The translations under genes were made by a program, and so were the position numbers. This document shows, one piece after another, positions 13,536 through 16,866 of a stretch of DNA of 48,728 nucleotides. Under the pieces are notes generated by a model, which searched no databases, had not been told where the DNA came from, and saw only the letters and a list, made by a program, of their open reading frames with translations. Positions within the stretch are counted from its first letter, which is position 1, and the number at the start of each line of letters is the position of its first letter. Source of the DNA: Bacteroidota bacterium (GTDB taxonomy: Bacteria; Bacteroidota; Bacteroidia; Bacteroidales; VadinHA17); assembly GCA_011374625.1 (NCBI GenBank), contig DRPN01000030.1, positions 1 through 48,728 on the forward strand, in the 5' to 3' direction.

Positions 13536-14642
13536 TCAGGATGGGTTATATTCCTGCAAATCTATTTCTCCTTTCAAATAAAGATATGCGTAATAAGCCA
13601 ATCCTTCCAGTTCGTCATCTCCGGGATACACATGAACCTCCGAGACTTTTGGCAGTCTTTCCATCAGATACCGCATGAGTGTCCTACTGTTGGCCATTGG
13701 TCCCGTGACCAGGATTGAATCGACAGGTTCGGTAATGGTCATATACATAGCTCCTACTTCTTTGGCCACCTGATAAGCCATGGCTTCGAAGATAAACCTG
13801 GCATTCTCATTCCCTTCTTCAATCATTTTTTCTGCATTGTAACCGCTGTCGGTATTAAGATAAGCCACCATTCCACCTTTGCCACGAACCATTTCAAGCA
13901 TCTCTTCCATGGTATATTTCCCGCTAAAGCAAGCTCTGATTACATCTCCAACAGGCAGGGAACCACTTCCTATAACCGAGAATGGACCATCCCCGTCATA
14001 TCCGTAAGTTGCATCAATAACTTTTCCGTGATTATGCATGCCGACGGTAATACCTCCACCCAAGTTCACCACAATCAGATTCAAGTCTTCATATTTCTTC
14101 CCTATTGACTTGGCATACATCCTGGCCACATATTTCTGATTCAGGGCATGGAAAATGGATTTTCTTTCAAACAAAGGATGGCCGGATACGCGGGCGAGTT
14201 CATCAAATTCATCGACAACAACAGGATCGGCAATATAGGCTTTGGCGTTGGGAAAATATTTCGCCAAGGTATCTGCTATCAGACCTCCCAAGTTTACCAC
14301 ATCTTCCACCTGTTCATTGAACGTTTTCAGGTCTTTTTTCATCTTTTCATTCACCTCATAGATACCCGATTTAACAGGATGGATAAGACCTCCCCTGCCC
14401 ATAACCATCTTGATATCATTGAAGTTGATTTCGTTTTCTTTCAATGCCTGCAATACTGTATCTGTTCTGAATTGTTTCTGATCGATAATGCTGTTAAAGT
14501 GGTCCAGTTCATCCTTTGTATGGCGGATCATTTTGAGAAAGATTGTTTTTTCCAACCTGTAGACAGCGATCTTTGTATAATCCACCCGAGGGTTTACCGT
14601 TATCACCAATATTTTGGAAAGATCAATATCTTTTCTGTTCAT
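13536..14642 (-). CDS. buk: Butyrate kinase family protein
   Basis: This 368-residue ASKHA-fold acyl-phosphate kinase would convert butyryl (or branched-chain acyl) phosphate and ADP to the acid and ATP. Family landmarks include GRGGLIHPVKSGIYEVNEKM, ADPVVVDEFDELARVSGHP, FHALNQK, VVNLGGGITVGMHNHGKVID and DGDGPFSVIGSGSLP. The N-terminal phosphate motif, usually NPGSTSTK, reads NPRVDYTK here, so glycine and serine/threonine contacts are lost. No phosphotransbutyrylase gene is adjacent. A terminator separates it from trpB2 upstream, so it should have its own promoter. Confidence 0.85.
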   Translation of the reverse strand: MNRKDIDLSKILVITVNPRVDYTKIAVYRLEKTIFLKMIRHTKDELDHFNSIIDQKQFRTDTVLQALKENEINFNDIKMVMGRGGLIHPVKSGIYEVNEKMKKDLKTFNEQVEDVVNLGGLIADTLAKYFPNAKAYIADPVVVDEFDELARVSGHPLFERKSIFHALNQKYVARMYAKSIGKKYEDLNLIVVNLGGGITVGMHNHGKVIDATYGYDGDGPFSVIGSGSLPVGDVIRACFSGKYTMEEMLEMVRGKGGMVAYLNTDSGYNAEKMIEEGNENARFIFEAMAYQVAKEVGAMYMTITEPVDSILVTGPMANSRTLMRYLMERLPKVSEVHVYPGDDELEGLAYYAYLYLKGEIDLQEYNPS

Positions 14643-16113: not shown

Positions 16114-16136
16114 CTTTTTAAGTTTAAGTTTATATT

Positions 16137-16166
16137 AAAAAAAAGGCATGTTGTAACCAACATGCC
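16137..16166 (-). terminator. Attenuator terminator upstream of trpB2
   Basis: On the minus strand, GGCATGTTG and CAACATGCC form a perfect 9-bp stem around GTTA, followed by eight T (16144-16137). The last T lies about 23 bp before the trpB2 start codon. Its loop side (TTGGTTACAA) can pair with TGTAACC in the leader ORF (16210-16204), giving a competing antiterminator. Confidence 0.85.
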
Positions 16167-16189
16167 CCGGTTCGATTTTATTCAATTTA

Positions 16190-16264
16190 TTACCAGACAT
16201 ACGGGTTACAGCAAGTAAATTTCATATGCCAGCAACACCAATATGTCCGATTCTTTGTTTTCAT
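16190..16264 (-). CDS. Trp-rich leader peptide of trpB2
   Basis: This 24-codon ORF starts with ATG at 16264 and ends in TAA at 16190. It encodes MKTKNRTYWCCWHM and then a tail ending PYVW, giving Trp at 9, 12 and 24, plus four Cys. Three Trp in 24 residues is far above chance. It lies 23 bp before a terminator that sits between it and trpB2. A ribosome stalled at Trp 9 or 12 leaves codons 19-21 free; these contain TGTAACC, which pairs with the terminator loop. A translating ribosome that reaches the stop would cover that segment. This is the layout of ribosome-mediated attenuation. Confidence 0.8.
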   Translation of the reverse strand: MKTKNRTYWCCWHMKFTCCNPYVW

Positions 16265-16866
16265 CTTTTAAGTTGCTAAAATATAAAAAATTTTAATTCC
16301 AAAAAATATATCGGAAAAAAAGATAAAATTTGATAAGTGATTTTTTTCAAGCAGATATTTTTTGAGAAAATTCTGAATATTAGAAATGTGATTCATCTGA
16401 AGAAGAGTTAGATGCAGTATCATTCTCTGTATAAACATGCAATTACCGGTCTGTTCCGATTTACCCCTGACGAAATCCGTTTCACAGCTATTAACCAAAC
16501 TTTCATGAAAATTCCGGATTATCAAAATACCACTTGCGTATATATACGGTTTTGGATCTTATGTCAATCCTTTTTTCAAAACCTTCCCGGTTATTCAATG
16601 GATAAATAAAAGAGAACAAATCCACGGGTATTCTGAGTCGGGAATGACACCTGAAAGCATCTGCAAAGAACTGTAGAGTACGATACACAAGGAAAAATAT
16701 GGAAGGGAGCCCCACATACATCATGAACCGGTCAATAAAAAAGAGCATGTGGAATTCGTTCTATATTTTCAGAAAAAACTGAAAAACAAAAAACGACTCA
16801 CATATATGTTATTTAATCGATAGTTTAATAAACATTTCCGTAAAATTTACCCAAAGATATCTGAAG
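16265..16866. other. Gap with no intact gene
   Basis: It holds the presumed trpB2 leader promoter (TATTTTAG-like -7 on the minus strand near 16280). It also holds short open pieces on the plus strand (for example EKYGREPHIHHEPVNKKE near 16700) that look like decayed coding DNA. I do not recognise them. Confidence 0.4.

Follow-up and report, generated by a model that had tools for sequence, protein, structure and literature searches.

Whether a trpB2 gene that stands alone can be under the kind of tryptophan control described for trp operons is the question raised by one locus of a Bacteroidota genome. In E. coli trpL and the other proteobacterial trp attenuators, a leader ORF with Trp codons is combined with 1:2, 2:3, and 3:4 stems. 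Here we analyzed a stretch of 48,728 nt (the window), for which an initial annotation had proposed classical trp attenuation of a stand-alone trpB2. We consider it highly probable that trpB2 of the window forms a single-gene unit preceded by a transcription attenuator of the trpL type, which acts through the ribosome. The evidence is sequence-based, and much of it comes from metagenome-assembled genomes. The proposal is supported by the conservation of the leader and by covarying stems, but it had to be amended with regard to the length of the antiterminator, the 1:2 hairpin, the position of Trp codon 24, and the Cys codons 10 and 11.

The trpB2 gene, its leader, and the competing stems

The gene behind the terminator had been called trpB2, and the identification holds, as its product scores 642.8 bits against NCBIfam TIGR01415 (curated cut-off 518.85) and 710.8 bits against PRK12391. 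The Lys, Glu, and Ser that we take to be catalytic residues of TrpB are kept where the protein aligns with the GAHK, ETGAG, and SGRG motifs of canonical TrpB. Because a terminator-like stem-loop follows the gene (Table 1), trpB2 looks monocistronic. A butyrate kinase gene (13536-14642, minus strand) lies downstream, past this stem-loop. According to one study, the role of orphan TrpB2 proteins is disputed, a serine deaminase function having been proposed and later found to be weak, and no second conserved gene neighborhood was detected for them (PMC1854888).

Table 1 Features of the trpB2 locus in the window
Feature	Position	Strand	Basis
Candidate -7 promoter element TATATTTTAG, weak	16276-16285	minus	degenerate form of the Bacteroidota TAnnTTTG; read from sequence
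Leader ORF MKTKNRTYWCCWHMKFTCCNPYVW and stop codon, 24 codons	16264-16190	minus	read from sequence; similar leaders in relatives
Regulatory Trp codon 9	16240-16238	minus	read from sequence
Regulatory Trp codon 12	16231-16229	minus	read from sequence
Trp codon 24, within the 1:2 stem	16195-16193	minus	read from sequence
1:2 hairpin, rival of the antiterminator	16249-16193	minus	minimum free energy -22.5 kcal/mol; first Trp codon in the 5' arm
Region 2, antiterminator 5' arm TGTAACCCGTATG	16210-16198	minus	counterpart in relatives covaries with region 3
Region 3, antiterminator 3' arm CATGTTGGTTACA	16164-16152	minus	overlaps terminator 5' arm and loop; counterpart in relatives covaries with region 2
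Intrinsic terminator 3:4 and eight T	16168-16137	minus	folding; counterpart in relatives covaries
trpB2 (459 aa), tryptophan synthase beta chain 2 of the TIGR01415 type	16113-14734	minus	NCBIfam; PDB 6hul, 4qys, 6hte
Terminator-like stem-loop 3' of trpB2	~14713-14668 (approximate ends)	minus	folding

The 24-codon ORF with Trp at codons 9, 12, and 24 was found on the minus strand where the initial annotation had placed it. Only two of its Trp codons are well placed, fewer than in close relatives, and its Cys codons 10 and 11 occupy positions that are Trp in relatives (WWCW in L003, WWWW in L007 and L094). Trp 24 lies just beyond region 2, within the 1:2 stem, so that a ribosome stalled there would cover region 2 and favor termination.

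The hairpin and its eight T (16144-16137) are also present ahead of trpB2, with a helix (16168-16143) of 10-11 pairs when G-U is allowed, where 9 bp had been noted. Folding energies are -16.8 kcal/mol (z -4.7) for the 40 nt around the terminator and -41.7 kcal/mol (z -4.9) for the 129-nt leader, with none of 200 shuffles equally stable. The pairing of TGTAACC (16210-16204) with GGTTACA (16158-16152) that had been proposed as the antiterminator does exist, but 7 bp is too short, since the helix extends to 12 of 13 positions of regions 2 and 3, two of them G-U; slightly longer stretches form a duplex of -20.0 kcal/mol. The protecting 1:2 hairpin, which includes region 2, is a part of the switch that the earlier proposal did not contain. 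The locus thereby has the elements by which ribosome-mediated attenuators are recognized: a short leader ORF with neighboring codons for the end-product amino acid, a terminator between leader and gene, an antiterminator exclusive with this terminator, and a 1:2 hairpin whose 5' arm contains or adjoins the regulatory codons.

Leaders of related trpB2 genes

The trpB2 loci compared were the best 80 of 229 from named genome contigs and those of the GTDB family of the window (117 genomes, 96 of them with TrpB2 at E <= 1e-150); 163 loci were scanned after removal of 7 duplicates, their phylum being taken from record titles or from kinship to the window. The detector called short ORFs in which two TGG fall within a stretch of 8 codons, located 10-120 nt before an intrinsic terminator and at most 240 nt from trpB2. 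Such a Trp leader with terminator precedes trpB2 in 93 of the 110 Bacteroidota loci and in none of the 53 loci of other phyla. The expectation that the upstream regions of orthologous trpB2 genes would show a Trp ORF, a hairpin, and covarying stems was thus borne out within Bacteroidota.

The 17 Bacteroidota misses are of several kinds. One locus ends 63 nt upstream (L154), two have a Trp ORF and a hairpin below threshold (L030, L083), L080 has a terminator but just one Trp codon, and in L098, L100, and L102 the leader, which carries WWW, lies more than 240 nt upstream and is found by the covariance model R1 described below. L151 and L161 (genomes G059 and G069) retain the terminator only, which looks like a decayed attenuator. 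No credible leader was seen in the remaining eight Bacteroidota loci (L034, L039, L087, L099, L101, L117, L125, L171).

Paired TGG codons before trpB2 occur beyond chance. Among 96 Bacteroidota loci for which the only conditions were a terminator and no less than 200 nt of upstream sequence, 92 have a TGG pair within four codons, compared with 2.4 in dinucleotide shuffles, and the codons next in excess reach 10 loci out of 96.

Covariation was counted in alignment A1 of 69 distant leaders, the group of the window itself (alignment A2, 13 leaders) standing outside these counts. As the A1 leaders were chosen for a TGG pair and a terminator, these two features are not independent evidence there. 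The antiterminator is paired in 92.7% of the A1 cells, with double changes at 5 of 10 pairs, and one pair occurs as A-U, U-A, and C-G. Its covariation score is 0.134 compared with 0.069 in shuffles (0 of 500, a count that is not a probability because the leaders are related) and at most 0.037 when slid. The counterparts of the terminator (98.5% paired, double changes at 5 of 10 pairs) and of the 1:2 helix (93.8%, 3 of 7 pairs) behave similarly. In addition, region 2 pairs better with its own region 3 than with that of other loci (mean -20.0 vs -15.1 kcal/mol, permutation p 5e-5) in 17 leaders hand-picked for diversity from 28 scored, which are related and so not independent; in two of the 17, L090 and L058, region 2 does no better with its own region 3.

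Model R1 was built from A1 and includes no sequence of the genus of the window. With an E limit of 0.1, its sole match in the window is the trpB2 leader (16134-16273, E 9.4e-6). Under this limit, the 88 sources searched yielded 18 matches, of which one is on the reverse strand (L035) and none falls in the 53 non-Bacteroidota loci. A number of Bacteroidota leaders escape R1, among them the WRWRWW group (L019, L025, L026) and L007 of the genus of the window.

Mode of action and alternative readings

Based on these elements, control by stalling at Trp codons would work as follows. When charged tRNA-Trp is plentiful, the ribosome would reach the stop codon and cover region 2, the 3:4 hairpin would form, and transcription would stop ahead of trpB2. 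Under a shortage of charged tRNA-Trp, stalling at Trp 9 or Trp 12 would place the ribosome within or next to region 1 and block the 1:2 hairpin; the free region 2 could then pair with the emerging region 3, and RNA polymerase would continue into trpB2. We infer stalling and read-through in this lineage and assume the coupling of ribosome and polymerase. If the ribosome stalls at codon 9 or 12, the RNA still exposed on its 3' side has the terminator as its minimum free energy structure (-21.2 and -20.6 kcal/mol, respectively), and the antiterminator (-17.2 kcal/mol) is the minimum only until the terminator 3' arm is made. As the equilibrium fold with a stalled ribosome favors the terminator, the model needs co-transcriptional folding.

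It is possible, although we consider it unlikely, that the terminated leader is mainly trans-acting, a short RNA or peptide acting on other genes as has been described for the trpL products of Sinorhizobium meliloti. Conservation of the leader RNA is indeed strong in the distant group, and the S. meliloti peptide peTrpL provides a precedent (PMC7298713). However, the peptide varies outside the Trp cluster and its stop codon moves, so that the conserved part is what attenuation needs; moreover, a trans-acting leader product would be compatible with attenuation rather than exclusive of it.

The chance that the Trp-rich micro-ORF and an unrelated terminator merely precede an unregulated, constitutive unit appears very small. 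L151 and L161 do retain a terminator without the Trp ORF, but the mutually exclusive stems covary, the codon excess is specific to TGG, and the combination is missing from all 53 loci outside Bacteroidota. Slimmer still is the case for a leader that senses another signal, for example cysteine, four Cys being present among the 24 codons, with WCCW and CC in the window leader. Relatives carry Trp at the WCCW positions (WWCW, WWWW), no Cys codon is among the eight most in excess, a list that TGG leads by a wide margin, so we rejected cysteine as the signal on these grounds. Finally, a T-box, a TRAP site, or a riboswitch in place of ribosome stalling would also be able to act at the terminator, but the Trp codons lie in frame in a conserved ORF and Rfam families of T-boxes or riboswitches match neither the window stretch (E up to 5) nor the loci of nine relatives (gathering scores), making this the least credible reading.

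The trp leader is itself an Rfam family. Up to an E of 5, its Rfam 15 covariance model has no match in the window stretch, where the comparison with Rfam returned three weak matches below cut-offs (two snoRNAs and one enterobacterial sRNA), and no Rfam family reached its gathering score in the loci of nine relatives. The leader is therefore a covarying RNA element without an Rfam match in the window stretch or in these nine loci.

Compared with known systems, the attenuator of the window shares with E. coli trpL a leader ORF with neighboring Trp codons, three stems, and a terminator before the first gene; the two differ in the Rfam trp-leader match, lacking here, and in the downstream gene, which is trpE there and a stand-alone trpB2 here. 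The Corynebacterium diphtheriae trpB2A operon likewise has a candidate Trp attenuator before a second trpB (PMC1262725), but this is an operon with trpA in an actinobacterium, and its trpB2 may or may not be of the TIGR01415/COG1350 type. Closer in phylogeny, leader-peptide attenuation, the same type of control, was inferred for amino-acid operons of Flavobacterium psychrophilum, a member of the same phylum, in an article that does not mention the word tryptophan (PMC9723704). The control mechanism is known; for a stand-alone TrpB2, we found no description of it within the open-access literature, the nearest being that of C. diphtheriae trpB2A.

Predicted attenuators of tryptophan genes in the family and the phylum

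The genome of the window also has a complete trpEGDCFBA operon, its genes being named by position and sequence, and TrpE, TrpC, TrpB, and TrpA by profile as well. In a search of this whole genome, R1 gave two matches at E <= 0.01, the window leader (E 4.8e-5) and the trpE leader (E 5.3e-4). The trpE attenuator (L118, ~6989-7103 of contig C5 of G000) encodes the leader peptide MNRNYTCWWWWLNGNRLLP, with WWWW, followed by the terminator GGGCTTATCGTTTACGGTAAGCCC and a T run; an antiterminator can also be read from its sequence. Like that of trpB2, it combines a Trp leader, an antiterminator, and a terminator and is matched, weakly, by R1, but it has other stem sequences and the full operon downstream. 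Across the family, in which TrpE was found in 50 genomes, 28 of the best-scoring 30 trpE loci have a Trp leader with terminator. Since R1 matches and Trp leaders are present at both genes, the two genes trpB2 and trpE seem to make up a small regulon under Trp attenuation.

R1 has a match at E <= 0.01 in 92 of the 117 family genomes. Two candidate further targets, G029:C152 and G023:C101, were rejected as ordinary terminators with no Trp leader seen, and a match of 32.3 bits in G068:C34 runs to the contig end; the remaining family matches were only compared by eye with the trpB2 and trpE positions. Altogether, the attenuator is present in 87 of the 96 family genomes with TrpB2, 82 of them by the detector (78 plus four, L275-L278) and five by R1, with Trp codons checked in G017, G019, and G009 and R1 alone in G073 and G085. 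It was not detected in the other nine (G001, G043, G007, G016, G048, G059, G060, G068, G069), of which G001 lacks sequence at the N-terminus and G043 at a contig end.

In an even sample of the phylum (395 genomes, TrpB2 in 123), 66 loci were examined: the best 30, two of them with less than 100 nt upstream, and 36 picked to cover further families. A Trp leader with terminator was found in 14 of the 66 (11 of 30 and 3 of 36), L264 being doubtful. The other 13 loci (L209-L212, L214-L217, L219, L228, L229, L262, L267) have Trp-rich leaders such as NWWWWRNISLLS, some with WWWW, quite different terminators, and unrelated stems, for example AAGCCGTGGATGGTAG. Their predicted antiterminator duplexes range from -14 to -24 kcal/mol, values that have no shuffle control. 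These candidate attenuators of other families are perhaps convergent or deeply diverged. Attenuation of trpB2 thus seems present in several families and absent from most of the loci examined, and universal attenuation of TrpB2 genes was rejected on the same count of 14 of 66. In family f28 (L213, L218, L220), trpB2 starts directly behind an upstream ORF, as seen for L213, and so may be part of an operon.

The spacing of promoter boxes sets many of the trpB2 leaders apart. The leader ATG or GTG is preceded at a distance of 4-6 nt by a perfect TAnnTTTG in 66 of the 69 distant leaders, all but L133, L164, and L165, and the distance is exactly 5 nt in 62 (for example L108, L119, and L112 of A1). 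Because the Bacteroidota -7 box is located at -12 to -5 (PMC9723704), transcripts of the distant leaders are predicted to begin about 1 nt before the start codon, that is, to be leaderless. The start codon itself is inferred, as a second ATG in the same frame is present downstream in some leaders. In 27 family trpE leaders with a visible box, the spacing is wider, 17-20 nt for 21 leaders, with L206 at 7 nt and of ambiguous start. No perfect TAnnTTTG occurs near the window leader, where a degenerate box is located ~11 nt upstream of the ATG, and this leader is not predicted to be of the leaderless kind. Leaderless mRNAs are rare in the phylum, at 5.5% in F. psychrophilum (PMC9723704), and about 3.7% of the 5' UTRs of Bacteroides thetaiotaomicron are under 10 nt. 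Leaderless attenuator leaders in Bacteroidota are thus a prediction from box spacing. Mycobacteria have leaderless Cys-codon attenuators, in which a leader ORF is likewise carried on a leaderless transcript, as predicted for the distant relatives; they differ in the amino acid, Cys, and in the phylum, and the window leader is not predicted to share this feature.

From a biological perspective, the conservation of a Trp attenuator provides genomic evidence that TrpB2 is handled by the cell as a gene of tryptophan supply. The other trp genes are less widespread, with TrpE in 50 of the 117 family genomes, TrpA in 49, and canonical TrpB and IGPS in 47 each. TrpB2 occurs in 56 of the 65 good genomes (completeness of 90% or more, contamination not above 5%), and 27 of the 56 lack both TrpE and TrpA. 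These 27 belong to three genera (15, 11, and 1), and one of them, G077, has canonical TrpB and IGPS, so that TrpB2 occurs without detected TrpE, TrpA, TrpB1, or IGPS in 26 of the 65. The attenuator is kept in 25 of these 26, the exception being G068. As trp genes are clustered, one lost contig could hide TrpE, TrpA, TrpB1, and IGPS together; the summed incompleteness over the 56 genomes predicts ~2.4 hidden clusters vs the 26 seen.

TrpB2 without other trp genes but with an attenuator fits indole salvage. The TrpB2 of B. thetaiotaomicron (BT_RS23500), which is of the same enzyme type as that of the window, helps E. coli without trpA in a cross-feeding assay, an effect that the authors credit to indole (PMC11535334); the comparison with the window covers the enzyme role only. 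The likely role of TrpB2 is to make tryptophan from indole under tryptophan shortage, beside the trp operon in the genome of the window and, in many relatives, where no other TrpB was found, on its own. A more specific scenario, which we regard as evenly balanced between right and wrong, is an indole recapture gated by Trp starvation. Here the attenuated trpB2 would be the only TrpB found after loss of the trp operon, usually beside a tryptophanase-family lyase, and would convert released or outside indole to Trp only when tRNA-Trp is short, from a leader that, unlike the trpE leaders, would be leaderless in much of the family. The genomes that keep an attenuated trpB2 where a trp operon was not found make indole salvage directly testable.

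A tryptophanase-family gene was found with NF009709, a profile that may also catch tyrosine phenol-lyase, in 94 of the 117 family genomes and in 24 of the 27 TrpB2 genomes without TrpE and TrpA. The full-length matches fall into two score classes, at ~660 bits and more and at ~620 bits and less, which possibly correspond to tryptophanase and tyrosine phenol-lyase.
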